Below are positions 359 through 57,450 of a DNA stretch of 64,000 bases, one piece after another. Origin of the DNA: Hansschlegelia zhihuaiae (GTDB taxonomy: Bacteria; Pseudomonadota; Alphaproteobacteria; Rhizobiales; Methylopilaceae). The translations under genes and the position numbers were made by a program. Each line of letters starts with the position of its first letter. Position 1 is the stretch's first letter. Where the stretch lies: assembly GCF_004103825.1 (NCBI RefSeq), contig NZ_RYFI01000023.1, positions 1 to 64,000 on the forward strand, in the 5' to 3' direction. A model generated the notes under the pieces. The model worked only from the letters and a program-made list of their open reading frames with translations, was not told the DNA's origin and did no database searches.

Positions 359-980
359 CGGACACCATTGCTTCGACGTAAGGGCGCATGACCGACCAGA
401 CCCGCGCCTTGCGCGCGTAACGCCAGAGCTGATCCGGCTTGCATCGGCGGCGGCGGAGGCCCTCACGCAGCCCCTCCATCGCAACGTCAAGGCCGATCTT
501 GGTCCGGTAGCGAAAGCAATCGACAATCGTCCTTGCCGGATCTGTGATGGGGACGTCGACATTCTCGATACGGTGACGCTCAACCCCTTCGGTCAGCGCC
601 GATCCGGTGAAGCGCACAAATCGGATAGGTGGATAATCGATCTTGGGTCGCCAGGCAGCGCGATCGATCGCCATCCATACAGCCGACGGCATCTGCAGCG
701 TCAGTTCGTGGTATTGAAGGGCCGAGGTAAGGCAGACAACACCCTTTGGAACCAGAACTGCTGCCTCAGCGAGACTATGGGCAGCGTCAACGTGGGCGTC
801 GGGGAGTTGGTAGAGGCCCCGTGCCGGGCGAACAACCGCCTGCTCTCGAACAAGCCTGGCAAGCGTCTCTGGACCAATGCCTTCGGCGACGAAATCCTTG
901 AGCCGGAGCATACCCCGGGCATTCAGGAGGTCGAGCGCACGAAGCCGCTGGGCGCTAGTGGACGGCATGGAGAGTGACAT
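348..980 (-). CDS. AbiEi-type antitoxin / transcriptional regulator
   Basis: About 210 aa. The N-terminal part (RLRALDLLNARGMLRLKDFVAEG...LVREQAVVRPARGLYQL) is the winged-helix domain with the 'RGxYxL' turn that is typical of AbiEi-like antitoxins. The remainder matches the C-terminal AbiEi antitoxin domain (VCLTSALQYHELT, RFTG, DPARTIVDCFRYR). It would bind its own promoter and neutralise the nucleotidyltransferase encoded directly downstream, whose start it overlaps. I chose ATG 980; ATG 968 is also possible and is better spaced from the AGAGGA purine run. A -10-like TATATT lies on the minus strand at 1003-998. The 200 bases upstream (981-1180) contain no gene I recognise. Confidence 0.85.
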   Translation of the reverse strand: MSLSMPSTSAQRLRALDLLNARGMLRLKDFVAEGIGPETLARLVREQAVVRPARGLYQLPDAHVDAAHSLAEAAVLVPKGVVCLTSALQYHELTLQMPSAVWMAIDRAAWRPKIDYPPIRFVRFTGSALTEGVERHRIENVDVPITDPARTIVDCFRYRTKIGLDVAMEGLREGLRRRRCKPDQLWRYARKARVWSVMRPYVEAMVSDAA

Positions 981-1180
981 TTCCTCTGACTCGGAAAAAT
1001 ATAGCAGAGGTTTTATCACAGGATCGTTGACTTGGGAATCCCCGAACCTTGCCCGTCTCCGTCCTTTCACAAAGCTTGGCCGAGATGGCTGGACGACAAC
1101 CGTACCATCGCCGACCTCATATTTTCTCCGCGCGCCAAAGAGACGAGAGAGAACGGCGAAAGTCTCATGATCGACAGCAG

Positions 1181-1900
1181 CTATCCTTTTAGCACAACCC
1201 GGCCGTCCTTCAGCCGATTCCGACTGGCTTGGGCCAGATTGACTGTATTCCGCACGAAATCGAGCCGCGCGATGCCAGCGTGGTAGGCTCGAAATGCCTC
1301 GCTCAAAGCACTATCCGTAACCTCGGGCGAGACTTGATCGTCCTTGCCTGTCGTCAGCGGCACATCGTCTAGCGACAGACCGCGCCCGCAGAGAAACGTC
1401 GTCACGATAACCTCGAAGGTCATCGGTGGACGGTGATCCATATGCGCCTCATCCCGCGAGATTCTTTCGCCCGTAACGGCGCAGGAAACCAGACCGTCAG
1501 AACCGCCGTGGGTGGCGAAGAAATCATCACGAGCCTTGTAGAGATCGAAGCGCACCGCACGTCGAAAGGCTTGAGCGACCTCCTGCTTACGGCTGGGTGG
1601 TCGCTGGGAGATGCAGTGCGGGTAGGAGAAATCCGTGCCGCTGCCATCGGTGCGGATGATCCGGAAGCATTGCGTCCCATGCTCTGTCATCATGACCTGA
1701 AAATGGCTGACACCGCAGCCCACCTTGGCGACATATTCGGTGTGGCGTTCGAGAAGGGCGGCAACGTCGAGACCATCCTCGTCACTCACTCGCTCACCAG
1801 GACGATAGCGGTTCAGCATAGCCTTGAAGAAAGCCGTTGCGTCGCCTTGCTTCTCGAAGCTGCGCGTCGCCAGCTCTACGGGTTTCGAACGCCCACCCAT
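1181..1900 (-). CDS. DUF3223-type protein with HNH-like nuclease motif
   Basis: 239 aa. Residues ~1-135 resemble the DUF3223 (DCL-like) domain: basic start, SFEKQGDATAFFKAMLNRY, then HFQVMMTEHGTQCFRIIRTDG. Residues ~140-166 read CAVTGERISRDEAHMDHRPP, a Cys-x(n)-His/Asp-His arrangement like an HNH endonuclease core (C140, H153, D155, H156). The predicted activity is metal-dependent DNA cleavage. The ATG directly follows the TGA of the SMC-like ATPase gene (TGAATG), so the two are translated together. By analogy with ATPase-HNH pairs such as Septu it is probably the effector of a defence module. The pairing is seen; the role is inferred. Confidence 0.65.
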   Translation of the reverse strand: MGGRSKPVELATRSFEKQGDATAFFKAMLNRYRPGERVSDEDGLDVAALLERHTEYVAKVGCGVSHFQVMMTEHGTQCFRIIRTDGSGTDFSYPHCISQRPPSRKQEVAQAFRRAVRFDLYKARDDFFATHGGSDGLVSCAVTGERISRDEAHMDHRPPMTFEVIVTTFLCGRGLSLDDVPLTTGKDDQVSPEVTDSALSEAFRAYHAGIARLDFVRNTVNLAQASRNRLKDGRVVLKG

Positions 1901-4384
1901 TCAAGCCATCCCTGCCGGTGCTGCCGCAAACTCGAACTGCGCCTCGCAGCCATCATGCGCACACACCGGCTTTTTGAGAGTAAAGGGCCGCTGGAATTTC
2001 GTTCGACTGCACTTCTTGCAGGCAAACTGGCTGCGGAAAATCTTGAATTCCTCCCAGCGCGCCTTCTCGTCGCCAATCGAACCGTCGCCATATGGCCCGT
2101 CCTGGAAGTGGCTGCCGAAATTCTCGATCTCGCCTTTCACCAAACTATCAAGGAACCGGTTGTTGACGCCCGGCACCAACGCTGGCGCCAGCTTGGCATC
2201 CTTGAGCAATCCGGCGAGCGCAGAGGCCAACTCGCTACGTTCGTAGGAATAGGCTCTCTCCAGCGGTCGGATGCGGACGCTCACCCCGAAATCCCGACAG
2301 ATGCCGAGAAGCCATTCCTCCTCGGCCTGACGCATCTCGTTGGCCGCCGACTGGCCCGCCACCCAACGTGCCTCGATCATCTCATCGCTGACCTTATGAT
2401 CAGCGAAACGCGGCCCATAGGCCGGATCGAGGCCAATGATCCGGGTGAAGTGCCAGGCTTTCGCCTCGAGTTGATCCTTCAAATAATTAAAGAATCGCTC
2501 GTCGTGCGTGGTGATCAGAATCTGGCAGTCGCCGAACATGGTGGCGATAAGTCCGGCAATGGTGCGCCGATGATCGGCATCGTAGGAGGTGACGATGTCA
2601 TCGAGCGCGATGATGGGCGCGCCGGCATTAAATTGCTTGATCGCCGCCATCCGCAACGCCAGCGCCACCGAATGAATCTGTGAGTCGCTCAAATAGCCGC
2701 CAGGCTGCACGCCCGTGCGGTTCTTGGCGAAATCGATCAGGAGGTTGAGCCGCTGCTGGTTCGTGTCGTCTTCCGCCGGCAACTCCAGCCGGATTGGCTT
2801 GGCGCCAGCGCCCTGGATGAGCTTGTAGATATCGTTCATCGGCGTCTGAAGCTTGTCGAGAAGGCTCTGCACCTTCTTGCGGATCTCGGCTGAGATGATC
2901 GTCGCCTGCGCGGTCAAGGCGTTGGAGAGTTTCCCCAGTTCATCTCGCGTCCGCAGCGCAAGGTTCCGATCGGCCTGTAGCTCCAGCAGTCGATCGATCT
3001 TCGCCTTGGCCTTGATATAGGTGTGGTCGCCTTGCTTCGATTCGATGTCCGCGATGGCTTGATCTAGCGTGGCGAGCAGCTTGATGATTGCCGCGACAAC
3101 ATCGGCCGAGGACGGAAGGACGGTCTGCGGCCAGCCGGCGATTCCTGCTTGATAGTCGATAAGATCGGCTTTCAATGCCGCCTCGCCATCTCCGAGGAGA
3201 CCAGTCAGCCCGGGCAGCGCCGCCAACAACTGGGTATGAGCCCTGGTCGCGGCAGTCTTGGCCCCGTCGAGCGTCTTCTTAGCGGCAGCGTAGTCCGCCA
3301 GTTCTTCGAGATGCTTGGCGAGGTGTTCCCGGATCGCCCCAGCGCTGCCCGCCGCCGTGTCTGCGACAGGCGTTGCACAGACCGGGCAAATGTCAGGTGC
3401 CGCCACCCCTTCGGCAAAAAGCGGTTCTGCGGCTTTCCATAAAGCCTGAAACACGGTGCTCGCCGCTTTGCCGCGTTCCTCCGCCTCCTTACTCTCCGCC
3501 ACCAACAGCGTCGCCACAGCCGTTTCAAAGGTCGGAATCGCACCGCTGACGATAATCTCGCCGCTCTCTGCGTCTTTCGTCTCGGCCCGCAAAGCGGCAG
3601 CCGCATTGCGGATCTGGCGCAGGCCCGCAAGCCCGATTTTGTTGTCCTCGGCCTTGGCGCGCGCTTCCAGTTCGAGATAGGCCGGATCGCCGGCGGCCAA
3701 CGCCGCCATCATCAGCGCGGGATCGAGTGGCGCCAAGACCGACGTGTTGGCGTGGGAAAGCACCGCCGCCTCATCCCAGGTCTTCACCGCCTGGGCCGTC
3801 TCCTTGGCAAGCTGGGTATCAACGCGCTGCAGCGCTGCCTCGTCCTCGGCGGCGGCCTTCACTTGCGCGCGCAGCGAACGGATATTCTTCTGTACCTCAA
3901 CCAGTGGGCCAAGTTGCAGCCAATTGGCGACATCCGCGTAGCGCTGTTCGGGCGTATGGATTTCAACAAAAGTGCGCAGCGTATGTCCGCGGATGATCGG
4001 TGGCACAGCGAAGCAGGCGTTCACAGTTGTCGCCACCGCCGGTATCGGTCGCTTCGCCCCCGTCGCCGACCGGCTACCGTTGGCGGCATTCTTGCCCGAG
4101 ACCACGTCGATCGTAACCGTCGACGCAATCTTCGCCTCTTCAGCCAGATTGTGCGCCAGCGCCAGGGGACCAGCCTGGTTGTTGATGGCGCGCTGACCGA
4201 GCCTTTCGAGTGTTCCGTCTTTGGAGAACATGAACTCCAGCGCATCGATGACGCTGGATTTACCGCTTCCGTTCGGCGCGAAGATCGCCAGGCAACGCTT
4301 CTTGCTGAAATCGAAGGTCTTCGGTTGGAGATACGCGCGGAAGCCGGAAAGGGCCAGGGACTGGAGGAAGTAAGGGTCAGCCAT
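1901..4384 (-). CDS. Rad50/SMC-like ABC ATPase with zinc hook
   Basis: 827 aa. Walker A is at residues ~36-43 (APNGSGKSS), right after a RecF-like start (LSGFRAYLQPKTFDFSKK). A long Ala/Glu/Lys-rich helical middle carries a CPVC motif at ~333-336, as in the Rad50 zinc hook. The ABC signature LSDSQ is at ~565, Walker B IIALDDI at ~591-597, and the H-loop TTHDER at ~625. The last ~50 residues hold a second zinc-binding-like cluster (CKKC...CAHDGC). The protein should dimerise on ATP and bind DNA. It is the middle gene of a tight three-gene minus-strand operon (8-base overlap with the small gene upstream, no gap to the HNH gene downstream). This is the architecture of an ATPase sensor plus nuclease defence system. 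Confidence 0.8.
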   Translation of the reverse strand: MADPYFLQSLALSGFRAYLQPKTFDFSKKRCLAIFAPNGSGKSSVIDALEFMFSKDGTLERLGQRAINNQAGPLALAHNLAEEAKIASTVTIDVVSGKNAANGSRSATGAKRPIPAVATTVNACFAVPPIIRGHTLRTFVEIHTPEQRYADVANWLQLGPLVEVQKNIRSLRAQVKAAAEDEAALQRVDTQLAKETAQAVKTWDEAAVLSHANTSVLAPLDPALMMAALAAGDPAYLELEARAKAEDNKIGLAGLRQIRNAAAALRAETKDAESGEIIVSGAIPTFETAVATLLVAESKEAEERGKAASTVFQALWKAAEPLFAEGVAAPDICPVCATPVADTAAGSAGAIREHLAKHLEELADYAAAKKTLDGAKTAATRAHTQLLAALPGLTGLLGDGEAALKADLIDYQAGIAGWPQTVLPSSADVVAAIIKLLATLDQAIADIESKQGDHTYIKAKAKIDRLLELQADRNLALRTRDELGKLSNALTAQATIISAEIRKKVQSLLDKLQTPMNDIYKLIQGAGAKPIRLELPAEDDTNQQRLNLLIDFAKNRTGVQPGGYLSDSQIHSVALALRMAAIKQFNAGAPIIALDDIVTSYDADHRRTIAGLIATMFGDCQILITTHDERFFNYLKDQLEAKAWHFTRIIGLDPAYGPRFADHKVSDEMIEARWVAGQSAANEMRQAEEEWLLGICRDFGVSVRIRPLERAYSYERSELASALAGLLKDAKLAPALVPGVNNRFLDSLVKGEIENFGSHFQDGPYGDGSIGDEKARWEEFKIFRSQFACKKCSRTKFQRPFTLKKPVCAHDGCEAQFEFAAAPAGMA

Positions 4385-4628
4385 TATCCACCTCCGGCTT
4401 CGGAGGATTCGCGCGCTCGGCTGCGAGTTTCAGGATCGCGTCTTTGGCCTGAGCGACGGCGTTCTGCGCCGGCGCCGCTTTCAGGATATGGGCCTCAAGG
4501 ATGTCCGCCATGCCGGCATCGACACCTTCCGTCCCCTTCAGACTTTTCCCCAAGGCCTTAAGAAATTGGTCCGGCGTATCTGCCACGTTTGCTTCATCTT
4601 CCACGCGCATGTCCCCATTTGTTTGCAT
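4377..4628 (-). CDS. Small acidic/alanine-rich protein, first gene of the ATPase-HNH operon
   Basis: Roughly 83 aa from ATG 4628 (a TTG at 4640 and an ATG at 4610 are also in frame; none has a strong ribosome-binding site). The protein is helical-looking and soluble, with no signal peptide or membrane segment. It contains TPDQFLKALGKSLKGTEG and repeated Ala-rich stretches. Its stop overlaps the start of the SMC-like ATPase by 8 bases, so it is almost certainly co-translated and probably a small partner of it, as small third subunits are in some SMC-based defence systems. I do not recognise a family. Confidence 0.55.
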   Translation of the reverse strand: MQTNGDMRVEDEANVADTPDQFLKALGKSLKGTEGVDAGMADILEAHILKAAPAQNAVAQAKDAILKLAAERANPPKPEVDNG

Positions 4629-4712
4629 TGGACAATTCAAGGAGAGCGCCCATGGGAAAGTGGCGCTTCCTTCGAGACTATTTGTGTTTATGCGGAAAGA
4701 CGGAGAAAGACA

Positions 4713-5306
4713 TCAGCCATAGGCCGCCTTTCCGACGCTCTGCGCGAGCCATGTCGGAAGCTGCGGCGCGGCGGCAACCAGTTCGCCGAACACACCAGGC
4801 GGCATCTTCCGCTTCAATGTCGTGAGCGCGGCCTCTGCCTTTTCCGGGCCGAGCCAGGCCAGCGCCCGCACAGCCTCCCCCGCCGGCCGGTTGGCCAGGG
4901 CCAGTTGCCAGCGCGGTGCATGCCGCAATTCCACCACCTGCTTGCCGAGGTGCATCTTTCGGCTGCGCCCGGAGGTCAGATAGACCGAGCGGACGGGCAC
5001 CTGCGTCGTCAAGCCAAGGGCGTTCGCCGCGGCAGCGCCGTTCGAGACGATGACCTCCCCCTTTTGGGTTGCAAGAGCCTCGACAGCCTGCTCGACCGAA
5101 GGCGTGCGCGTGCCGAACCGGCTGGCGATGGGGCGCAGATAGACGCCGCGACCGGCGCGGATGAGCTGCCCGCGCTCCGTCAGGCGCGACAACGCCTGAT
5201 CCACGGCCGCCCGGTTTCCGAGGTGCAGCAGGCTCTTGGCGGACACAGGGGCGCCTTCGGGCAGGCCCGTCGCATGCGACAAAATCTGTTCGGTCAGCCA
5301 TGTCAT
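4713..5306 (-). CDS. DUF6088-like winged-helix regulator (AbiEi-related)
   Basis: About 197 aa. The N-terminus reads LTEQILSHATGLPEGAPVSAKSLLHLGNRAAVDQALSRL..., then RAGRGVYLRPI. This is a winged helix with the same 'RGxY' turn seen in AbiEi-like antitoxins, and the C-terminal half (LTSGRSRKMHLGKQVVELRHAP) fits DUF6088. Start chosen at ATG 5306 because AGGAGA lies 7 bases upstream; an earlier in-frame start at 5363 lacks this. It probably binds DNA, either as an antitoxin whose toxin is elsewhere or lost or as a regulator. No toxin-like gene is adjacent, so it looks solitary. Confidence 0.7.
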   Translation of the reverse strand: MTWLTEQILSHATGLPEGAPVSAKSLLHLGNRAAVDQALSRLTERGQLIRAGRGVYLRPIASRFGTRTPSVEQAVEALATQKGEVIVSNGAAAANALGLTTQVPVRSVYLTSGRSRKMHLGKQVVELRHAPRWQLALANRPAGEAVRALAWLGPEKAEAALTTLKRKMPPGVFGELVAAAPQLPTWLAQSVGKAAYG

Positions 5307-5363
5307 CGTCTTTCTCCTGTTGGAAACATATGCGAGTTTCTGACAGTTTTTAAGGAAGCCCAT

Positions 5364-5458
5364 AAGAACAGGCCGGATAAGGGGGAAGCCTTCCCCTGCG
5401 GCCGAACCAAGGTCTCGGCCTACCCCTTCTGCGGGGAGATCCCCGCAACGCCCCCTAT
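5364..5458. promoter_or_regulatory. Two strong hairpins upstream of ardC
   Basis: Between the divergent DUF6088 and ardC genes are two perfect inverted repeats: GGGGAAG/CTTCCCC with a one-base centre (5382-5396) and GCGGGGA/TCCCCGC with a GA centre (5431-5446). They may be operators for either gene or a transcript-end structure for the region. No clear -35/-10 pair is visible. Confidence 0.4.
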
Positions 5459-5539
5459 AGAGTGAGAGTGGGGACGGGTTTTCCGTGACGGGTTGAGGGC
5501 TGGAGAAGAGGTCTCCGGCGCCCGTCGCGGAGAACCGCG
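5459..5539 (+). promoter_or_regulatory. Structured leader element, copy 1 (upstream of ardC)
   Basis: Begins with GAGTGAGAG and then forms a hairpin: CGTGACGGG (5484-5492) pairs with CCCGTCGCG (5521-5529). Inside it GGAGA (5502-5506) pairs with TCTCC (5512-5516) around the loop AGAGG. The stem ends 10 bases before the ardC ATG and its right flank carries the GGAGA ribosome-binding site. Two further copies of the same layout occur at 6568 and 10171. Confidence 0.65.
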
Positions 5540-6490
5540 ATGTTCAGGAAAGACGCCAGCGCACGCCCCGGCTCCGATCGGGCGAGCCTTTATGACGACA
5601 TCACCGGCAAGATCATCGCCGAGCTGGAGGCAGGCCGCTTCCCCTGGGTCCAGCCTTGGGGATCGGCCTCGGTCAAGGCGCCCCTCGCCATGCCGAGGAA
5701 CGCCGCGACCGGGCGGCATTATTCGGGGATCAATGTGCTGATCCTCTGGGGCGCGGTGATCCAGCACGGCTTTCCCGGCCAGAGCTGGCTCACCTTCCGC
5801 CAGGCCCTGTCGCTCGGCGGCAATGTCCGCCGGGGCGAACGCGGCACCACCGTCGTCTATGCTGACCGTTTCACGCCGGAGGACGAGAAGCGCCGCGCCC
5901 GCGAGGCCGGCGAGGAAGCGGCCGCGATCCCGTTCCTCAAGCGATTCACGGTTTTCAACGCGGCGCAATGCGACGGCCTACCGGAGGATGTCGCCATTGT
6001 GGCTCCACCGCCTCCGCCCGGCCTCATCGAGCCGCAGGTCGAGGCCCTGATCCGGGCCACGGGCATCGACTTCCGCATCGGCGGGGACCGCGCTTTCTAT
6101 GTCCCGGCGCATGACTATGTGCAGGTGCCGCCGCCGCAGGCGTATTTCGAGCCGATCAACTGGCACAGGACGGCCCTGCACGAGCTGGGGCACGCCACGG
6201 GCCACCCCTCACGCCTGAACCGCGATTTCTCGGGTTCCTTCGGCTCAAAAAAATACGCCTTCGAGGAGTTGGTCGCCGAGATCAACGCGGCCTTCTGTTG
6301 CGCCTCGCTCGGCATCACACCCACCGTCCGCCATGCTGACTATATCGGCTCCTGGCTCGAGGTGCTGCGCGAGGACAATCGCGCCATCGTCCGCGCCGCC
6401 TCCCAGGCGAGCAAGGCGGCCGACTGGCTGCTAGGGTTCCAGCCGGGCGCCGATGTCGATGCAGCCGACGACGAGCGGCAGGCGGCGTGA
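5540..6490 (+). CDS. ardC: ArdC-like antirestriction protein (ssDNA-binding, zincin domain)
   Basis: 316 aa. Residues ~10-140 match the ArdC N-terminal domain (DUF1738: YDDITGKIIAELEAGRFPWVQPW, YSGINVLILW, RGERGTTVVYADRF). Residues ~205-250 hold the metallopeptidase core HELGH (214-218) with a downstream glutamate in FEELVAEINAAF. ArdC of plasmid pSa is known to bind single-stranded DNA and to protect incoming DNA from restriction. Start at ATG 5540 with GGAGA 6 bases upstream. It is preceded by the structured leader and followed by a perfect hairpin at 6505-6544, so it is probably a one-gene unit expressed early in the recipient. Confidence 0.9.
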   Translation: MFRKDASARPGSDRASLYDDITGKIIAELEAGRFPWVQPWGSASVKAPLAMPRNAATGRHYSGINVLILWGAVIQHGFPGQSWLTFRQALSLGGNVRRGERGTTVVYADRFTPEDEKRRAREAGEEAAAIPFLKRFTVFNAAQCDGLPEDVAIVAPPPPPGLIEPQVEALIRATGIDFRIGGDRAFYVPAHDYVQVPPPQAYFEPINWHRTALHELGHATGHPSRLNRDFSGSFGSKKYAFEELVAEINAAFCCASLGITPTVRHADYIGSWLEVLREDNRAIVRAASQASKAADWLLGFQPGADVDAADDERQAA

Positions 6491-6504
6491 CGATCCTGAA
6501 AACC

Positions 6505-6544
6505 GGAAAGGCGGAGAAGCGGGCTTCCGGCTTTACGCCTTTCC
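6505..6544 (+). terminator. Hairpin after ardC
   Basis: GGAAAGGCG (6505-6513) pairs perfectly with CGCCTTTCC (6536-6544), with a nested GAAGC/GCTTC pair in the loop. It sits 15 bases after the ardC stop. There is no T-run, so termination would be weak or factor-assisted. Confidence 0.5.
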
Positions 6545-6567
6545 GCCTGTGTGGCGCGGCTCTCCGA

Positions 6568-6650
6568 GAGTGAGAGGGCGGCGCTTCGCTTCGTGACGGG
6601 TTGGAGGTCGAGAGAGAGGCTCCCGGCCGCCCGTCGCGGAGTAAACCCCG
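6568..6650 (+). promoter_or_regulatory. Structured leader element, copy 2 (upstream of the ParB-like gene)
   Basis: GAGAGTGAGAGGG is followed by the stem CGTGACGGG (6592-6600) pairing with CCCGTCGCG (6630-6638). An inner GGAG (6603-6606) pairs with CTCC (6620-6623), and the loop contains GTCGAGAGAGAG. The stem ends 12 bases before the ATG. Same layout as copies 1 and 3. Confidence 0.65.
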
Positions 6651-8795
6651 ATGGCTACAGCCGTTCAGAAGATCACCTTGTCGTCGGCGCGCGACATCCC
6701 CTTCAACAAGCTGGTGCTGAGCCAGTCCAACGTCCGGCGCGTCAAGGCCGGCGTCTCGATCGAGGAGCTGGCCCAGTCCATCGCCCGGCGCGGCCTGATC
6801 CAGAGCCTGCATGTCCGTCCCGTCCTCGACGCCGATGGCGCCGAGACAGGCATATTCGAGGTGCCCGCCGGCGGCCGCCGCTATCGCGCGCTCGAACTGC
6901 TGGCGAAGCAGAAGCGCCTGGCCAAGACCGCGCCGGTGCCCTGCGTCGTCGGCGACGCCAACAGCGACATCCTGGTCGACGAGGTCTCGCTGGTCGAGAA
7001 CATCGAGCGCGCGCCGCTGCATCCGCTCGATCAGTTCCGCGCCTTCTTGGGGCTGCGCGACAAGGGCATGACCGAGGAAGCCATCGCCGCCGCCTTCTTT
7101 GTCGGCGTCAACGTCGTGAAGCAGCGCCTGCGCCTCGCTTCCGTCTCGCCGGCGTTACTGGAGATCTATGCCGACGACGGCATGACGCTCGAACAACTCA
7201 TGGCCTTCACCGTCTCGCAGGACCATGCCCGTCAGGAGCAGGTCTGGGAGGCAGTCAAGGATAGCTGGCAGAAGGAGCCCTATCAGATCCGCCGGATGCT
7301 GACCGAGACCTCGGTCCGCGCCTCCGACAAAAGGGCCGTCTTCATCGGCGTCGAGGCTTATGAGGCGGCCGGCGGCATCGTGCTGCGCGACCTGTTCCAG
7401 TCGGACGATGGTGGCTGGCTGCAAGATCCGGCCCTGCTCGACCGCATGGTGGCCGACAAGCTGAAGACCACCGCCGACGAGATCGCGAGCGAAGGCTGGA
7501 AATGGGTCGAGGCCGCCTTGAGCTTTCCCTACGGCCACCAGCATGGGCTTCGCGAACTGGCTGGCGTCACGGTCGACCTGACCGAAGAGGAGCGCGCCGC
7601 CCGCGAGGCGCTGCGCGACGAATACGACCGGCTCGAAGCCGAATATGCGGAAGCCGATGAGCTGCCGGACGAGATCGACGCACGTCTCGGCGAGATCGAA
7701 CAGGCCCTCGACGCCTTCGAGCAGCGCCCCGCGATCTACGATCCGGCCGACATCGCCGTCGCTGGCGTATTCGTCAGCCTCGACGCCGACGGCTCGCTGT
7801 CGGTGGATCGCGGCTATGTCCGTCCCGAGGATGAGCATCCGGCCGAGCCCGAAGGCAGCGATGCGCCGGAGGCCGACGGTGAAACCAGCCATCCGGCCGC
7901 GCCCGCCGTTCAACGCGCCGTCATCACCATCGGCGGCCAGGCCACGGAACCGGAAGACGACGAGGATGATGGCATCAAGCCGTTGCCCGAGCGCCTCGTC
8001 ATCGAGCTGACCGCGCATCGCACCCTCGCTCTGCGCAACGCGGTCGCCGAACATCCCGACGTCGCCATGACCATGCTGCTGCACAAGCTGGTCAGCGACA
8101 CCTTCCGGCGCACCGCGCCGGCCGGCTGCCTCGAGGCTCGCGTCAATCATATCTTCTTCTCGGCGCAGTCCGAGGAGTTGAAAGACAGCGCACCCGCGCG
8201 CGAGGTCGCCGAGCGGCACGAGCGCTGGGGCGATCATGTTCCCGCCGACGACCAGGCGCTGTGGGACTGGCTCACCCATCTCGACGACGGCACGCGCCTC
8301 GATCTGCTCGCCCATTGCGTCAGCTTCGGCGTGAACGCACTGTTCGAGCGGCCCAATCCCTATAGCGGATCGGGCGTCAGCCAGCATGGTCTGGATGTCC
8401 GCCTCTCGCAGGCCGACCGGCTGGCGCGCGCCACCGGCCTCGACCTGGTGGCGGCAGGTTGGCGGCCGACGGTCGGCAACTATCTCGGCCGCGTCACCAA
8501 GCCCCGCATCCTCGAAGCCGTGCGAGAGGGCGCCGGCGAGCGGGCTGCCCAGCTCATCGACCATCTGAAGAAGGGCGACATGGCCAAGGAGGCCGAGCGC
8601 CTGCTGGCCGACACCGGCTGGCTACCCGAGCCGCTGCGCCTGGTCGATCACGATGATGGGCAGGCCGTCGAACCGGGCGCTGAGGCCAACGCCGCAGACG
8701 AGGTAGCCTTGCCGGACTTCCTCAGCGAGGACGGCGACGACGAGGATGGCGACGGGATCGAGGACGAGGACGCCCTGACGATCGCGGCCGAATGA
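6651..8795 (+). CDS. ParB/RepB-like protein with long C-terminal extension
   Basis: 714 aa, more than twice the usual ParB length. Residues ~20-150 contain the ParB/Srx nuclease-like fold with the boxes PAGGRRYRALELL and VENIERAPLHPLDQFRAF. A helix-turn-helix follows at ~140-200 (MTEEAIAAAFFVGVNVVKQRL). The remaining ~500 residues are acidic (runs of D/E at ~440-460 and at the very C-terminus) and I cannot assign them. No ParA is adjacent; the ParA of the element is ~14 kb away and has its own small partner. A role other than partition is therefore likely, such as DNA protection or regulation in the recipient. The gene has the shared leader but a clearly separate promoter region from ardC. 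Confidence 0.8.
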   Translation: MATAVQKITLSSARDIPFNKLVLSQSNVRRVKAGVSIEELAQSIARRGLIQSLHVRPVLDADGAETGIFEVPAGGRRYRALELLAKQKRLAKTAPVPCVVGDANSDILVDEVSLVENIERAPLHPLDQFRAFLGLRDKGMTEEAIAAAFFVGVNVVKQRLRLASVSPALLEIYADDGMTLEQLMAFTVSQDHARQEQVWEAVKDSWQKEPYQIRRMLTETSVRASDKRAVFIGVEAYEAAGGIVLRDLFQSDDGGWLQDPALLDRMVADKLKTTADEIASEGWKWVEAALSFPYGHQHGLRELAGVTVDLTEEERAAREALRDEYDRLEAEYAEADELPDEIDARLGEIEQALDAFEQRPAIYDPADIAVAGVFVSLDADGSLSVDRGYVRPEDEHPAEPEGSDAPEADGETSHPAAPAVQRAVITIGGQATEPEDDEDDGIKPLPERLVIELTAHRTLALRNAVAEHPDVAMTMLLHKLVSDTFRRTAPAGCLEARVNHIFFSAQSEELKDSAPAREVAERHERWGDHVPADDQALWDWLTHLDDGTRLDLLAHCVSFGVNALFERPNPYSGSGVSQHGLDVRLSQADRLARATGLDLVAAGWRPTVGNYLGRVTKPRILEAVREGAGERAAQLIDHLKKGDMAKEAERLLADTGWLPEPLRLVDHDDGQAVEPGAEANAADEVALPDFLSEDGDDEDGDGIEDEDALTIAAE

Positions 8796-8803
8796 CCCTC
8801 ACC

Positions 8804-8834
8804 GCGGGGGAGCGGCGAGAGGTCGCTTCCCCGC
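8804..8834 (+). promoter_or_regulatory. Strong hairpin between the ParB-like gene and the next small gene
   Basis: GCGGGGGAGCGG (8804-8815) pairs with TCGCTTCCCCGC (8823-8834), allowing two G-T pairs, around the loop CGAGAGG. It ends 21 bases before the next ATG and leaves AAGGAGA free as ribosome-binding site. It could be an attenuator or the 3' end of the ParB-like transcript. Confidence 0.45.
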
Positions 8835-8855
8835 ATCGTCGCAAGGAGACCCTCC

Positions 8856-9077
8856 ATGATCGAACCCGACCCGTCCGCCACGCGCCGCGTCGTCTTTCAG
8901 TATTTCGTGCCCGTTCACGTTGAGGTCGAAGACGGTCTCGTCGTCTGCGTCACCGTCATCGACGAAGCGCCGGTGCGAGACCCATCCTTGGTCGAAGGCG
9001 ATGCCGGCTACCTGCCGGAAGCTGTCGACGCCGCCGACGATGGCCAGCCCTGGCCATCCTGGCGGTTCGGCTACTGA
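8856..9077 (+). CDS. Small acidic conserved ICE protein, function unknown
   Basis: 73 aa, strongly acidic, beta-rich start (TRRVVFQYFVPVHVEVEDGLVVCVTVID) and aromatic end (PWPSWRFGY). Good ribosome-binding site AAGGAGA 9 bases before the ATG. No recognised domain. It stands between a hairpin at 8804-8834 and a terminator at 9104-9127, so it may be its own unit. Acidic small proteins in such blocks are sometimes DNA mimics; that is speculation here. Confidence 0.65.
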   Translation: MIEPDPSATRRVVFQYFVPVHVEVEDGLVVCVTVIDEAPVRDPSLVEGDAGYLPEAVDAADDGQPWPSWRFGY

Positions 9078-9103
9078 CCGCCTTCGATCCTCCCTCAACC
9101 CAG

Positions 9104-9127
9104 AGCCCGGCCATCGCGCCGGGCTTT
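9104..9127 (+). terminator. Rho-independent-type terminator
   Basis: AGCCCGGC (9104-9111) pairs with GCCGGGCT (9118-9125) around a six-base loop and is followed by TTTCTCGTTT. Confidence 0.7.
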
Positions 9128-9146
9128 CTCGTTTCCGGAGCCTGTC

Positions 9147-9563
9147 ATGGCCGACTATTTCACCCATTTCTCGTGCCTGCTCGACGTCGGCACGCCCGAG
9201 AACGCCGCCCGCGCGCTCGATCTCTACAATCGCCTGTCCGAGGAAAGCGCATCGGAGGAACCACCCTCCGCAGGCTTCCTCCTTTCGATCCAACCGGAGC
9301 ATGGCGGCAGCCAACTCTGGATGCGCGACGACGTGACCGGCGACCCCGAACGCCTCATCCACTTCGTGAACCGCTGCGCCGCCGAGTTCGGCCTCAAAGG
9401 CAGATGGGGATTCCAATATGCCAACACCTGCTCGAAGCCCCGGCTCGATGGCTTCGGCGGCGGCGCGCATGTCCTCGACCTCGCCACCCGCGAGACCGTG
9501 AACTGGATCTACACCGATGGCTGGCTCGATCAGACCATCTCCGGCGAGGGAGGACCGCTATGA
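9147..9563 (+). CDS. Conserved hypothetical protein of the ICE block
   Basis: 138 aa, soluble, with no signal or membrane segment. It has alternating strands and tryptophan-rich patches (QPEHGGSQLWMRDD, LKGRWGFQYANTC, ETVNWIYTDGWLDQT). I do not recognise a domain. It is the first of three tightly coupled genes (ATGA overlaps at 9560 and 9820) that end at a strong terminator. The three products probably act together or are needed in fixed ratio. The GGAG before the ATG (TTCCGGAGCCTGTC) supports the start. Confidence 0.7.
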   Translation: MADYFTHFSCLLDVGTPENAARALDLYNRLSEESASEEPPSAGFLLSIQPEHGGSQLWMRDDVTGDPERLIHFVNRCAAEFGLKGRWGFQYANTCSKPRLDGFGGGAHVLDLATRETVNWIYTDGWLDQTISGEGGPL

Positions 9564-9823
9564 GCATCCCCTCCTACGCCCGGACCAATTTCCAGACCCT
9601 GCTGCGCGCGGGGGGCGACGGCAATCTCGCCCTCATGGAGTGCCTCGACGCAGCGACGGCCAGCCCGCGCTACGTCATCTGCACCGTGGGGCGGGACGAT
9701 GGCGATTACGTCTTCACGCCCTTCGGCCATCTCGCCGACGGCAATCCCTACGACGCTTATCTGCCGCCCGATCTCGACGATCCCGAAGGCTTCGTGCGGC
9801 TCGACGCGGGAGAGGCGCCATGA
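9560..9823 (+). CDS. DUF6117-like small protein
   Basis: 87 aa. The sequence pattern ARTNFQTLLRAGGDGNLALMEC...ASPRYVICTVGRDDGDYVFTPFGHL...NPYDAYLPP fits the DUF6117 family, which is found in alphaproteobacterial mobile elements and has no known function. It starts within the stop of the gene before (ATGA) and ends within the start of the gene after. Confidence 0.75.
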   Translation: MSIPSYARTNFQTLLRAGGDGNLALMECLDAATASPRYVICTVGRDDGDYVFTPFGHLADGNPYDAYLPPDLDDPEGFVRLDAGEAP

Positions 9824-10116
9824 CCGACATCGACGCCATCTTCGCGGCGGATCGCCAGCGTCCGCCGCGTGAACGGTCTCTGCCCTGGCTGGAAACCAGG
9901 GACGGCATCACCGTCGTCATCGAGCCCAAGCCGCATTGGGCCAACGACATGCGGGCCTTCCGATCCGAAGCCTGCGAATATTGCGCTTATGATGATTGGA
10001 CCACGAACGGCGCCCGCGCCAGGTTCTTCGGCCACGTCGACACCTGCGGCCAAGACCTGATCCGCAAGGCCCGCGCGCTCGTCGTCGGCGAGATCGCGGA
10101 CGGACATTGGAACTGA
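9820..10116 (+). CDS. Small protein with C-x2-C...H-x3-C zinc-finger-like pattern
   Basis: 98 aa. Residues around 50-72 contain CEYC, then 16 residues, then HVDTC. This spacing (C-x2-C-x16-H-x3-C) could bind one zinc ion, but the family is unknown to me. Last gene of the 9147-10116 unit; ATGA overlap with the DUF6117-like gene; a strong terminator starts 6 bases after its stop. Confidence 0.65.
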   Translation: MTDIDAIFAADRQRPPRERSLPWLETRDGITVVIEPKPHWANDMRAFRSEACEYCAYDDWTTNGARARFFGHVDTCGQDLIRKARALVVGEIADGHWN

Positions 10117-10121
10117 TCCTC

Positions 10122-10157
10122 GGAAAAGCGCCCACCTCTCGGTCGGGCGCTTTTTCC
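10122..10157 (+). terminator. Strong Rho-independent terminator
   Basis: GGAAAAGCGCCC (10122-10133) pairs with GGGCGCTTTTTCC (10145-10157) across an 11-base loop, with a T5 run in the right arm. It closes the small-gene operon. Confidence 0.85.
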
Positions 10158-10170
10158 ATGCCAGCGTCGC

Positions 10171-10265
10171 GAGAGTGAGAGGGCGGCCGGAACGGGTTTG
10201 AGCCGGTGTGGTCGAGAGAGAGCGCCCCGCGGCTCGTCCGTTCCCGCTCTCCCGAGGCTCACATC
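10171..10265 (+). promoter_or_regulatory. Structured leader element, copy 3 (upstream of the methyltransferase-helicase)
   Basis: Starts with GAGAGTGAGAGGGCGG like copy 2. The stem uses different bases but keeps the pairing: GGAACGG (10189-10195) with CCGTTCC (10238-10244), and GAGCCG (10200-10205) with CGGCTC (10230-10235). The loop keeps GGTCGAGAGAGAG. Changed bases with kept pairing are what a selected RNA or ssDNA structure would show. Confidence 0.65.
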
Positions 10266-13200
10266 ATGACCCTGATTTCCGCATCGGCGGCAGCGACTGT
10301 CGCCGCGCCGCTTCCGCTCGCCGCCAATCCCGAACCCTCTGCCGCCATCTTCGCGGCGGCCGGCCTGCTGCTGCCCCATCTCGAACGCGGCGAGCGCGTC
10401 GATACCGCTGCCCTGCGTGCGGCGATGGAGACGGCCTTCGGCGCGTCCGATTCCGCCGGCGCCTGGGACTGGAAGACGGCCTATGACGCCTGCGAGGCCG
10501 CGACCGTACTGTTCCTGCGCAAATACGGACGTGCGCTTTTCCGCAAATCCGTAACTCCGGCTGCACGTCTGTCCGCGCTGACGAAGATCGCCGGCCTGTT
10601 GCCGACGCACACGCGCCGTTCGGCCGAGAGCCAGACCTACCAGCAATTCTCGACGCCGATCCCGCTCGGCCTGGTCGCGGCCCACGCCGCCGCCATCACC
10701 CCGGCGGACCGGGTGCTGGAACCGTCAGCGGGCACCGGCCTGCTGGCTATCCTCGCCGAGATCGCCGGCGGCACGCTCGTCCTCAACGAGCTGGCCGACA
10801 CCCGCGCCAGCCTGCTGTCGCTTCTCTTCCCGGCCATTCCCGTCACCCGCTTCGACGCGGCCCAGATCGACGATCATCTCGATCCCGCCGTCACGCCCAG
10901 CATCGTGCTGATGAATCCGCCGTTCTCCGCAATGGCCAATGTCGAAGGCCGCATAGCCGACACCACATATCGCCATGTCGCCTCGGCGCTGGCGCGTCTG
11001 GCTCCCGGCGGACGCCTGGTGACGATCACCGGCGCCAGCTTCGCGCCCGACAATCTGGCCTGGCGGGACGCATTCACTCGCCTGCAGGAGCGCGGGCGCA
11101 TCGTCTTCTCCGCCGCCATCGACGGCGCGGTCTATGCCAAACACGGCACGACGTTTCCGACGCGGCTGACCGTCATCGACAAGCGGCCCGCCGACGATCC
11201 GGCCGTGTTCCCGGCCGCACCCGGCGTTGCCTCGGACGCCGCCACGCTGCTGGGCTGGCTCGACGATCATCTGCCGACACGGCTCGCCGTCGATCCCTCC
11301 CTCACGGTCCCGACTGTCGCGGCTTCCACCCCTCGCAGCGTGCGCGGCTATATCAACCGCACCGCCAAGGCCGTCCCTGCGGCCGTGCCGATGACCGAGC
11401 CGAAGGGCCTGCCACTCGCCTACGAGACCCAGGACGGCCTAGCAGGCGAAGGCGGCCGTTTGTCCGACGGCATCTATGAAGAATACGGATTGCAGGCGAT
11501 CCGTATTGCCGGTTCTCAGGCGCACCCCACCAGGCTGGTGCAATCGGCGGCGATGGCTTCGGTCGCCCCGCCCAGACCGAGCTATCGGCCGCACCTCCCG
11601 GTCAATATCCACGAGCTGCTGTCCGACGCGCAGCTCGAGACCGTCATTTATGCCGGCGAGGCTCACTCCGATCATCTCGCCGGATCGTGGACGGTGGACG
11701 CCACCTTCGATGTCGTCACCGCCGCGCGCGAGGAAGCGACGAACGCCGCGCGCTTCCGGCGCGGCTTCATGATCGGTGACGGCACCGGCGTCGGCAAAGG
11801 GCGTCAGTCCGCCGCGATCATTCTCGACAACTGGCTCCAGGGCCGCCGCAAGGCGGTGTGGATCAGCAAGTCCGACAAGCTGATCGAGGACGCGCAGCGC
11901 GACTGGTCGGCGCTCGGCATGGAGCGCCTGCTGGTCACGCCGCTGTCGCGCTTCCCGCAGGGGCGGCCGATCACGCTGCCGGAAGGCGTCCTGTTTACGA
12001 CCTATGCCACGCTACGGTCCGACGACCGTGGCGAGAAGGTTTCGCGCGTCCGGCAGATCGTCGAATGGTTGGGCTCCGACTTCGATGGAGTCCTCATTTT
12101 CGACGAGGCGCACGCGATGCAGAATGCCGGTGGCGGCAAGGGAGAACGCGGCGACGTCGCCGCCTCGCAGCAGGGCCGCGCGGGTCTGCGGCTCCAGCAC
12201 GCGCTGCCGAACGCCCGCGTCGTCTATGTCTCGGCGACCGGCGCCACCACGGTCCACAACCTCGCCTACGCCCAGCGGCTCGGCCTGTGGGGCGGCGAGG
12301 ATTTTCCGTTCTCGACCAGGGCGGAGTTCGTGGAAGCCATCGAGGCCGGCGGCGTCGCGGCGATGGAGGTGCTGGCCCGCGACCTGCGCGCGCTCGGCCT
12401 CTACACCGCCCGCTCGCTCTCCTTCGACGGCGTGGAATACGAGCTGGTCGAGCACGCGCTGACCCCCGAGCAAATCCGCATCTACGACGCCTATGCCGGG
12501 GCCTTCGCCATCATCCATAACCACCTGGATGCGGCGATGGAGGTGGCCAATATCACCGGCGCCACCGGCACGCTGAACCGGCAGGCCAAGTCCGCCGCCC
12601 GCTCCGCCTTCGAGAGCGCCAAACAGCGCTTCTTCGGCCATCTGCTGACGTCGATGAAGACGCCGACCCTGATCCGGTCGATCACCGCCGATCTGGAATC
12701 TGGCCATGCCGCCGTCATTCAGATCGTGTCGACGGGCGAAGCCCTGATGGAGCGCCGTCTGGCCGAGTTGCCGACCGAGGAATGGAACGACGTTCGCGTG
12801 GACATCACGCCCCGCGAATATGTTCTCGACTACCTCGCCCATTCCTTCCCGGTGCAGCTCTACGAGCCGTTCACCGACGGTGAGGGCAACCTGTCGTCGC
12901 GGCCGGTCTATCGCGACGGCCAGCCCGTCGAAAGCCGCGAGGCCGTCGCGCGTCGCGACGAGCTGATCGCGCAGCTCGCCTCTCTGCCACCCGTGCCCGG
13001 CGCGCTCGACCAGATCGTCCAGCATTTCGGCACCGAGCTGGTGGCGGAGGTCACGGGCCGATCGCGGCGCATCGTCCGCAAGAACACGGCTTCGGGCGGC
13101 GACCGCCTCGTCGTCGAGAACCGCGCCGCCGCCGCCAATCTCGCCGAAACCCAGGCGTTTATGGATGACAGCAAGCGCATCCTGATCTTTTCGGACGCCG

Positions 13201-14612
13201 GCGGCACTGGTCGCAGCTATCATGCCGAGCTTTCGGCGCGGAACACCCGGTTGCGCGTCCACTATCTGCTCGAACCCGGCTGGAAAGCGGACGCCGCCAT
13301 CCAGGGCCTTGGCCGCACGCACCGGACCAACCAGGCGCAGCCGCCGCTGTTCCGGCCCATCGCCACGGACGTCAAGGCGGAGAAACGCTTCCTCTCCACC
13401 ATCGCCCGCCGCCTCGATACGCTGGGCGCGATCACGCGCGGCCAGCGCCAGACCGGCGGCCAGGGCCTGTTCCGTCCCGAAGATAATCTCGAAAGCGCCT
13501 ATGCCCGCGATGCGCTGCGCCAGCTCTATCTGCTGCTCGTGCGGGGCAAGGTCGAAGGCTGCTCGCTCGAGCGCTTCGAGTCCGCCACCGGCCTGAAGCT
13601 GATGGACGCGAACGGCATCAAGGACGAGCTGCCGCCGATCACCACCTTCCTCAACCGGCTGCTGGCCCTGACCATCGAGCTGCAGGGCATCCTGTTCACC
13701 GCCTTCGAGCAGCTTCTCACCGCCAAGATAGAGGGCGCCATCGCCGCCGGCATCTACGATGTCGGGCTGGAGACGCTGACGGCGGAAGGCTTCACCGTCA
13801 CCGGCCGCCAGACCATCTACACCCATCCCGGCACGGGCGCGGAGACGCGCCTGCTGACCATCGCCCAGAGGACTCGCAACCGCCCGGTCACGCTGGACGA
13901 CGCGCTCGCCTTTCTCGGCGAACCCGGCGCCAGGCTGCTGGTCAACGAACGCTCGGGCCGCGCCGCCCTCCAGATCCCCGCCACCTCGATCATGCTCGAC
14001 GATGGCGAGATCGAACGCCGCGTCCGGCTGATCCGGCCGATGGAATCGCACACCGTCCCGGTGAAGATGATGGGCGAGACCCATTGGATCGAGGCAGAGC
14101 GGAACGACTTCGCCACGACCTGGAACGCCGAGGTCGCGGACGTGCCGGCGTTCTCCGACAGCACGATCCACATCGTCGCCGGCCTGTTGCTGCCGATCTG
14201 GAAGCGGCTGCCGAACGAGTCCACCCGTGTCTATCGGCTCCAGACCGACGGGGGCGAACGGATCGTCGGCCGCAAGGTCTCGCCTGCCTGGGCGGCAAAT
14301 GCGACCACGACCGGCGCAGCCACGCTTGCGCCCGCCGACGCCTTCATGGCGCTGATGGATGGCCGCACCATCCTCGACCTCGCCGAGGGGCTTCAGCTTC
14401 GCCGCGTCCGCGTCATGGGCGCCAACCGCATCGAACTGTCGGGCTTCACCGACACGATGCGCGAGCGGCTCACCGCCTACGGACTGTTCCACGAGATCAT
14501 CTCCTGGAAGCTCAGGATGTTCGTGCCGACCGATAGCGCCGGTCCTGCGGTGCTGGAGCGCGTGCTGGGCCGCTATCCGGTCCAGCGTATCGGCGAGCGC
14601 GAGGCGGCATGA
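10266..14612 (+). CDS. Methyltransferase-helicase fusion (strawberry-notch-like, DarB-like antirestriction candidate)
   Basis: 1448 aa from ATG 10266. Residues ~130-330 form an N6-adenine-type methyltransferase: SAM motif LEPSAGTGLLA at ~151 and catalytic NPPF at ~216. Residues ~470-1100 are a superfamily 2 helicase of the strawberry-notch type: GDGTGVGKGRQ at ~502, DEAH at ~612, SATGATT at ~656, GLGRTHRTNQ at ~1013. The C-terminal ~350 residues are unassigned. Phage P1 DarB has the same methyltransferase-plus-helicase plan and protects incoming DNA from type I restriction. This gene sits in a block with ArdC and shares its leader, so an antirestriction role in the recipient is a reasonable inference. 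It overlaps the Toprim gene by ATGA. Confidence 0.85.
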   Translation: MTLISASAAATVAAPLPLAANPEPSAAIFAAAGLLLPHLERGERVDTAALRAAMETAFGASDSAGAWDWKTAYDACEAATVLFLRKYGRALFRKSVTPAARLSALTKIAGLLPTHTRRSAESQTYQQFSTPIPLGLVAAHAAAITPADRVLEPSAGTGLLAILAEIAGGTLVLNELADTRASLLSLLFPAIPVTRFDAAQIDDHLDPAVTPSIVLMNPPFSAMANVEGRIADTTYRHVASALARLAPGGRLVTITGASFAPDNLAWRDAFTRLQERGRIVFSAAIDGAVYAKHGTTFPTRLTVIDKRPADDPAVFPAAPGVASDAATLLGWLDDHLPTRLAVDPSLTVPTVAASTPRSVRGYINRTAKAVPAAVPMTEPKGLPLAYETQDGLAGEGGRLSDGIYEEYGLQAIRIAGSQAHPTRLVQSAAMASVAPPRPSYRPHLPVNIHELLSDAQLETVIYAGEAHSDHLAGSWTVDATFDVVTAAREEATNAARFRRGFMIGDGTGVGKGRQSAAIILDNWLQGRRKAVWISKSDKLIEDAQRDWSALGMERLLVTPLSRFPQGRPITLPEGVLFTTYATLRSDDRGEKVSRVRQIVEWLGSDFDGVLIFDEAHAMQNAGGGKGERGDVAASQQGRAGLRLQHALPNARVVYVSATGATTVHNLAYAQRLGLWGGEDFPFSTRAEFVEAIEAGGVAAMEVLARDLRALGLYTARSLSFDGVEYELVEHALTPEQIRIYDAYAGAFAIIHNHLDAAMEVANITGATGTLNRQAKSAARSAFESAKQRFFGHLLTSMKTPTLIRSITADLESGHAAVIQIVSTGEALMERRLAELPTEEWNDVRVDITPREYVLDYLAHSFPVQLYEPFTDGEGNLSSRPVYRDGQPVESREAVARRDELIAQLASLPPVPGALDQIVQHFGTELVAEVTGRSRRIVRKNTASGGDRLVVENRAAAANLAETQAFMDDSKRILIFSDAGGTGRSYHAELSARNTRLRVHYLLEPGWKADAAIQGLGRTHRTNQAQPPLFRPIATDVKAEKRFLSTIARRLDTLGAITRGQRQTGGQGLFRPEDNLESAYARDALRQLYLLLVRGKVEGCSLERFESATGLKLMDANGIKDELPPITTFLNRLLALTIELQGILFTAFEQLLTAKIEGAIAAGIYDVGLETLTAEGFTVTGRQTIYTHPGTGAETRLLTIAQRTRNRPVTLDDALAFLGEPGARLLVNERSGRAALQIPATSIMLDDGEIERRVRLIRPMESHTVPVKMMGETHWIEAERNDFATTWNAEVADVPAFSDSTIHIVAGLLLPIWKRLPNESTRVYRLQTDGGERIVGRKVSPAWAANATTTGAATLAPADAFMALMDGRTILDLAEGLQLRRVRVMGANRIELSGFTDTMRERLTAYGLFHEIISWKLRMFVPTDSAGPAVLERVLGRYPVQRIGEREAA

Positions 14613-44300: not shown

Positions 44301-44364
44301 AGCAGTCCACCACCGAATCCACGGCCTGGGTCTGATAGGGCTGGACCTTGAACTTCAGCTTCAT
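41326..44364 (-). CDS. res: Type III restriction enzyme subunit (Res)
   Basis: 1012 aa. SF2 translocase: Walker [11 protein letters not shown] at ~95-104, motif [10 protein letters not shown] at ~215, and motif VI region [16 protein letters not shown] and EVGRGLRL. The C-terminal nuclease shows the PD-(D/E)xK pattern [13 protein letters not shown]...YFVAETKG at ~932-956. It forms a complex with Mod, translocates or slides from two head-to-head sites and cuts ~25 bases away in known type III systems. Last gene of the minus-strand operon, 10 bases after mod. Confidence 0.92.
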
Positions 44365-44374
44365 GCTCGCCCCC

Positions 44375-46279: not shown

Positions 46280-46289
46280 ACGTATCCCT

Positions 46290-57446: not shown

Positions 57447-57450
57447 GCCC

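Follow-up and report, generated by a model that had tools for sequence, protein, structure and literature searches.

For conjugative elements that are not of the F type, it is an open question how the anti-defence genes are timed, and a repeated leader in this Hansschlegelia zhihuaiae DNA bears on it. In the window (the whole 64,000-nt stretch that was analysed), the ardC, parB-like and strawberry-notch helicase genes all lie on the + strand, each behind a copy of the leader, and genes for RepA-like, ParA-like, VirD2-like relaxase, type IV secretion system (T4SS) coupling and VirB-type proteins follow downstream. From these downstream genes we conclude that the window contains an integrative or plasmid-borne conjugative element. 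The original prediction saw one structured leader in front of three genes and offered three readings of it: an RNA regulator, a binding site for a common regulator, or a hairpin promoter active on single-stranded DNA (ssDNA). Which of these fits the leader, and what might it do for the genes behind it?

Three leader copies of two structural classes

The copies, their parts and the genes behind them are listed by position in the window.

5459..5539, + strand: leader copy 1 (class I), before ardC; class I model 80.7 bits, training sequence
5459..5468, + strand: purine box AGAGTGAGAG of copy 1, seen in the sequence and conserved in relatives
5481..5532, + strand: copy 1 hairpin (single-sequence fold and consensus)
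5481-5492 with 5521-5532, + strand: copy 1 outer stem
5507-5511, + strand: pentaloop AGAGG closed by the copy 1 inner stem
5529-5532, + strand: copy 1 Shine-Dalgarno sequence GGAG, within the 3′ arm of the hairpin
5540..6490, + strand: ardC (ArdcN and MPTase-PolyVal; PF08401, PF18818)
6566..6650, + strand: leader copy 2 (class I), before the parB-like gene; class I model 95.7 bits, training sequence
6589..6641, + strand: copy 2 hairpin (single-sequence fold and consensus)
6589-6600 with 6630-6641, + strand: copy 2 outer stem
6606-6614 with 6620-6628, + strand: copy 2 inner stem, pentaloop AGAGG at 6615-6619
6638-6641, + strand: copy 2 Shine-Dalgarno sequence GGAG, within the 3′ arm
6651..8795, + strand: parB-like gene (ParB_N; PF02195)
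10171..10265, + strand: leader copy 3 (class II), before the helicase gene; class II model 108 bits, training sequence
10189..10244, + strand: copy 3 hairpin (seen in the sequence, fold and class II consensus)
10189-10195 with 10238-10244, + strand: copy 3 arms GGAACGG/CCGTTCC
10200-10205 with 10230-10235, + strand: copy 3 arms GAGCCG/CGGCTC
10211-10222, + strand: copy 3 loop GTCGAGAGAGAG
10245-10251, + strand: copy 3 CGCTCTC, which can pair with GAGAGTG of the purine box
10254-10257, + strand: copy 3 Shine-Dalgarno-like GAGG, 3′ of CGCTCTC
10266..14612, + strand: strawberry-notch-type helicase gene (PF13872, PF13871; relatives annotated methyltransferase/helicase)

Copies 1 and 3 lie exactly where they had been placed before (5459-5539 and 10171-10265), and copy 2 is present and ends at 6650, with its start at 6566 instead of 6568. 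The described arms were all found, CGTGACGGG/CCCGTCGCG in copies 1 and 2 and GGAACGG/CCGTTCC plus GAGCCG/CGGCTC in copy 3, as was GTCGAGAGAGAG in copies 2 and 3. The common start word holds except in copy 1, which begins TAGAGTGAGAG, one base off GAGAGTGAGAG. All three copies precede the genes named for them, but they fall into two related structural classes and not one: copies 1 and 2 make up class I, and copy 3 belongs to class II.

The class I covariance model, whose E-values are rough by the tool's own statement, recovered copy 2 (E = 1e-24) and copy 1 (E = 1.5e-20), both training sequences, when run on the 64-kb window, and it matched copy 3, which lies outside its training set, with E = 0.0025. 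With at most one mismatch, GAGAGTGAGAG occurs five times in the window; shuffles average 1.7 occurrences, and 2 of 100 reached five. By itself the start word is weak evidence. In single-sequence folding, copy 1 went well beyond its shuffles (z = −6.9), and copies 2 (z = −1.1) and 3 (z = −1.5) were not better than theirs. Because only copy 1 folds well beyond shuffles on its own, the evidence for a structure is comparative and not thermodynamic.

Several other features of the window were noted. The next class I model match after the three copies (58736-58827, − strand, 13.4 bits, E = 0.064) is probably due to chance. A terminator-like hairpin with a T run, read by eye and absent from the list of the terminator scan, lies at 10124-10154, between the stop of the frame at 9517-10116 and copy 3. 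Genes for a Type III restriction enzyme and methyltransferase lie at 41326-46297 on the − strand (PADLOC; the enzyme also by Pfam), on the same contig as ardC. Helicase/nuclease-like genes at 46982-50266 (−) and 53979-63617 (+) possibly form a defence island, and 57451-58629 matches PADLOC ZacA (DUF6361). The tRNA-Phe that ARAGORN places at 36721-36813, amid T4SS genes, is probably a false positive.

Covarying pairs and the strand that folds

Each copy starts with the purine box AGAG(N)2A(R)AG, which a linker separates from a long hairpin whose loop is GA-rich. The outer stem of class I has 12–13 pairs and holds the Shine-Dalgarno sequence within its 3′ arm, and the inner stem carries a pentaloop, which among 139 distinct leaders is AGAGG in 84 and AGAGT in 15, the other 40 falling outside the search pattern. 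Among 52 distinct class I leaders, 95.3% of cells were paired, against 38–49% when the structure was slid along the alignment, and two-sided change occurred at 12 of 22 pairs, against 2.3 in shuffles. For 128 distinct leaders, in an alignment that was fitted to the structure, 93.5% of cells were paired, two-sided change reached 19 of 21 pairs (shuffles, 11.9; slid controls, 7–11), and the two-sided cells numbered 222 (shuffles, 60).

As a phylogeny-aware null, substitutions were re-placed along a FastTree tree. With E counted over the structure pairs, and the end (start-codon) columns dropped from both alignments, E fell below 0.05 for 4 of 21 structure pairs in the model alignment and, in a MAFFT alignment made without regard to structure, for 3 of 20; slid structures gave no significant pair, or one in a single case. 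On the MAFFT alignment, structure pairs took ranks 1, 2, 3, 5 and 7 of 3403 column pairs. With all column pairs as the basis of E, the structure pairs below 0.05 fell to 2 of 21, and the three other pairs below that value were start-codon columns shifted by the alignment. The lower-stem pairs that hold the Shine-Dalgarno sequence mostly covary weakly, several of them being near-constant T.G. In class II, 95.2% of cells were paired across 41 sequences and the covariation score was 0.306 against 0.230 in shuffles; two-sided change, at 5 of 19 pairs, was not above shuffles (191 of 500 reached this count). The alternative pairing of purine box with CTCTC showed no covariation but may still form, as both of its sides hardly vary.

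The original prediction had argued from changing bases and kept pairing to a selected structure, and had proposed covariation in homologues and a fixed position before the gene as checks. On the comparative evidence, the pairing is selected in class I: two-sided change touches nearly every pair of the 128 leaders, structure pairs head the covariation ranking even where the alignment was blind to structure, and the similarity extends far beyond recent duplicates with the pairing kept. The position is also nearly fixed, at 83.0 ± 1.3 nt from purine box to ATG in class I (138 leaders) and 94.2 ± 1.4 nt in class II (41 leaders).

Where the coding strand has a G.T pair, the template strand has an A.C mismatch. 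The consensus-pair cells of 104 distinct stems comprised 1677 Watson-Crick pairs, 424 G.T, 33 A.C (24 of them at one pair) and 49 others. Part of the G.T excess may reflect sequence conservation, as some T.G pairs are nearly constant. The reverse complement folded worse in 103 of the 104, by a mean difference of 11.9 kcal/mol with RNA parameters, and in 98% with DNA parameters. Because G.T far outnumbers A.C, the complement folds worse and the distance to the start codon is nearly fixed, it is the coding strand, most likely as mRNA, that folds. The leader combines what is generally expected of a cis-regulatory mRNA leader, namely a covarying structure that forms on the coding strand and keeps a nearly constant distance from the start codon, and of the three readings offered at the outset the RNA regulator is the one favoured.

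These observations bear directly on the hairpin promoter, in which the incoming single strand, as in Frpo/ssi elements, would fold into a promoter and give early transcription. The antirestriction, ParB-like and helicase genes would fit a leading region; all leader genes lie on one strand upstream of the relaxase gene, and we infer the strand of transfer in this element from that gene order. In F, as far as the available text of the sources goes, Frpo promoters precede leading-region genes (PMC9849209, PMC11541004). Such a promoter needs the template strand to fold, however, and G.T cells outnumber A.C cells on the coding strand (424 to 33) while the complement folds worse in almost every stem. 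A start in or after the hairpin would moreover leave almost no leader. A strict, linear scan with the Escherichia coli consensus, a weak test in this class of bacteria, found no −35/−10 pair, with 0 sigma-70-type sites on either strand of 5300-10400 (shuffles, 0.2). On strand asymmetry, reverse-complement folding and the promoter scan we rejected the ssDNA promoter as the main reading, and we regard it as highly improbable.

Upstream of the purine box, 38 non-redundant regions showed no strong conservation and no conserved promoter. The leader could instead be a two-part element, in which the purine box would serve as a DNA promoter or operator with a dedicated factor, transcription would start between box and hairpin, and the hairpin would form a 5′ end that serves stability or translation. 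Conservation sets in sharply with the box, the box–ATG distance is nearly constant and no other promoter is in sight; a run of at least five T lies within 50 nt upstream of 26 of 41 class II leaders, as after a terminator, although T runs lie there in only 3 of 139 class I leaders. Against a promoter role, the box resembles no promoter element known to us, and in class II it is complementary to the CTCTC before the Shine-Dalgarno sequence, which an RNA role would explain equally well. We consider the two-part arrangement unlikely. As for the binding site of the original prediction, a plain operator leaves the compensatory stem changes unexplained, but the AGAG(N)2A(R)AG box alone could act at the DNA level.

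Element lineage and downstream genes

The source set comprised 80 loci fetched by ParB alignment, in which the leader played no part, together with four plasmid loci and the window (85 in all). The leader precedes parB in 85 of 85 sources; 83 of these parB leaders are among the 150 best model matches, and those of the remaining two, L003 and L005, are among the 253 matches that the class I model gave over the sources at E up to 1, 252 of them on the parB strand. The model itself was built from 52 leaders, of which 51 are parB leaders. Four further plasmids also carry the leader before parB. Besides the window itself, 93 loci were fetched via ParB, and 88 of them have class I before parB. At five distant ParB homologues (two beta-, one gamma- and two alphaproteobacterial), class I and II models gave E = 0.28 at best; one of the five, L186, has only 19 nt upstream of the gene and is uninformative. 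Because these distant homologues are without the leader, we rejected it as a property of the gene family: it is a trait of this element lineage. Judging by their names, nearly all of the 80 fetched loci are presumably alphaproteobacterial, L085 being titled just Proteobacteria; L056, titled as an actinobacterium (Enemella), is probably contamination.

Run on whole genomes, the class I model found the leader in 20 of 289 from the window's class, which the relatives suggest to be Alphaproteobacteria, and in 34 of 398 from its phylum, every one of the 34 belonging to that class. The two samples overlap in part, and the number of out-of-class genomes among the 398 is not fully listed. Most of these genomes were outside model building. 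Given the class I model matches and these whole-genome finds, the copies are more than chance resemblances. The class II model found its leader in 8 of 200 phylum genomes. BLASTN with copy 2 gave matches in 135 plasmids, of which the 60 listed carry names that we take to be alphaproteobacterial, and none in phages. On pCHQ1, a complete conjugative plasmid from Sphingobium indicum UT26S, the genes as far as the relaxase follow a closely similar order, and the class I and II models place leaders at its ardC-type, parB and helicase genes (positions 14581, 17542 and 23570). The same plasmid carries ssb, toprim, strawberry-notch, parB-like and ArdC-like genes a second time (592-9075), and there neither model has a match.

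The genes behind the leader were surveyed at 102 matches chosen by hand from the 253, with most parB leaders and near-duplicates omitted, so that class sizes are not frequencies; clusters of downstream frames were named from Pfam domains and record annotation, and one match had no open frame. The helicase cluster accounted for 45 matches, one of them inside the gene. Many helicase matches had weak class I scores; the class II model found helicase leaders strongly (52 of the 85 sources searched). The ArdC cluster accounted for 28, a small protein for 10 (no Pfam match; one plasmid record calls it RadC), DUF932 (named from record annotation, its Pfam match being weak) for 9, the RadC JAB domain (PF04002) for 5 and antirestriction PF03230 for 2; one parB-like and one PAPS-reductase gene were single cases. 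Among 89 distinct leaders from the genome scans, read at true match ends after 11 duplicates had been dropped, 75 frames were assigned (ParB 43, ArdC 16, DUF932 13, small protein 3), 8 matched no cluster and 6 leaders had no frame. Class II leaders also precede a DUF6878 gene (in L005) and an unnamed pCHQ1 gene.

Two families without domain names were seen behind the leader. One, of about 182 aa (L044 11325-11873; L059 10988-11545) and with no Pfam or NCBIfam match, is a candidate new establishment protein. The other consists of 128-aa proteins behind weak leader matches (28.5–29.2 bits; L122 1033 and L107 1971), and its scanned member, L162, from the same place as L122, had no Pfam or NCBIfam match.

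That the same leader is kept before unrelated genes also bears on a simpler role, in which the hairpin would be an mRNA stability or processing element between cistrons, such as a site for RNase III or RNase E, without regulation. The upstream stop codon can be close to the purine box (17 nt in L004, about 60 nt in L184), as such an element would have it. The conserved loop, the box and the tie to the Shine-Dalgarno sequence would, however, exceed the needs of a barrier hairpin, as would its retention across such different genes, and we think this role very unlikely.

A candidate translation gate and related systems

We favour, with a probability of roughly 0.7, a cis-acting RNA that gates the translation of establishment genes. 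Each copy would act as a structured RNA 5′ of its own gene, and the folded class I leader would hide the ribosome-binding site of genes such as ardC and parB. In folding predictions, the class I Shine-Dalgarno sequence had a mean unpaired probability of 0.10 (139 leaders), against 0.30 for control Shine-Dalgarno-like words at 84 other genes, these being the genes with such a word among 115 examined in six plasmid loci (L005 19337, itself behind a class II leader, was left out, with the mean unchanged). Sequestration of the Shine-Dalgarno sequence by the lower stem is a prediction for class I. The inner loop is predicted to be open (unpaired probability 0.93, n = 104); the purine box, at 0.51 (n = 138), would be half open. 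A translation gate read via box and loop would be the simplest interpretation. Opening may be set by ribosome loading at the purine sites or by a shared factor recognising purine box and loop, and one signal could switch several early genes of the element together. Against a gate, the search for a promoter of the leader gave none, and the stem is very stable, so that its opening requires an agent, and none was found.

We infer the switch, its factor and its timing after conjugative entry. One tentative and rather doubtful version is that a factor keeps the leader shut in cells that carry the element, and that new recipients, which have no factor, allow a burst of translation of all leader-bearing genes before the leader closes again. 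If true, such a factor-repressed switch would do at the RNA level what Frpo promoters and the p576 repressor do. The leader makes RNA-level control of establishment directly testable, gives a sequence by which such a regulon can be traced throughout Alphaproteobacteria, and marks candidate establishment genes, including those without a domain name.

The original prediction had found no named motif that fits, and this agrees with our searches: at gathering score no Rfam 15 family matched in the window or in eight relatives (143,361 bases), relaxed thresholds gave nothing relevant, and no published name was found. Judged by titles and abstract openings, mostly of literature outside subscription journals, we recognised no description of this leader. 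The radC motif (RF01754) is, in the available text of its source, a candidate structured RNA of Proteobacteria rated probably cis-regulatory (PMC2864571), a description that would suit our leader too. It had no match at gathering score in the window, the eight relatives or 58 class genomes, and matched 4 of 299 phylum genomes, all of one genus; we rejected it as the leader's identity, as no model match was found and the letters are unrelated by eye. STAXI (RF01728), from what is available of the same source, consists of tandem pseudoknots and is listed for Enterobacteriales (PMC2864571). Like our leader, it appears there as a structured element near antirestriction and other DNA-processing genes; unlike STAXI, the window leaders have no Rfam match.

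Like our leader, Frpo/ssi elements of F-type plasmids are, in the text available to us, repeated stem-loops before leading-region genes; each carries a −35 and a −10 box, and the strand on which they act is the transferred one (PMC9849209, PMC11541004). In our leader, by contrast, the coding strand folds, selected folding of the template strand is not seen, and a consensus scan tuned to E. coli gave no boxes.

The nearest concept appears to be EGeRS1 of the Bacillus conjugative plasmid pLS20, by analogy of description. In the accessible part of its report, EGeRS1 is a conserved foldable region of 420–750 bp whose copies directly precede the ribosome-binding sites of several establishment operons, that of ardC being one. 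No constitutive promoter was found in it, its mechanism is given as unknown, and it blocks readthrough in reporter assays; there its authors give no evidence for action as RNA or ssDNA and judge an ssDNA promoter highly unlikely (PMC8708921). The two share a conserved sequence placed before several putative establishment genes, ardC among them, and differ in length, the conserved part here spanning only about 83–94 nt from purine box to ATG. The strand-asymmetry test used here, G.T against A.C, may help to separate RNA from ssDNA in other structured leaders such as EGeRS1.
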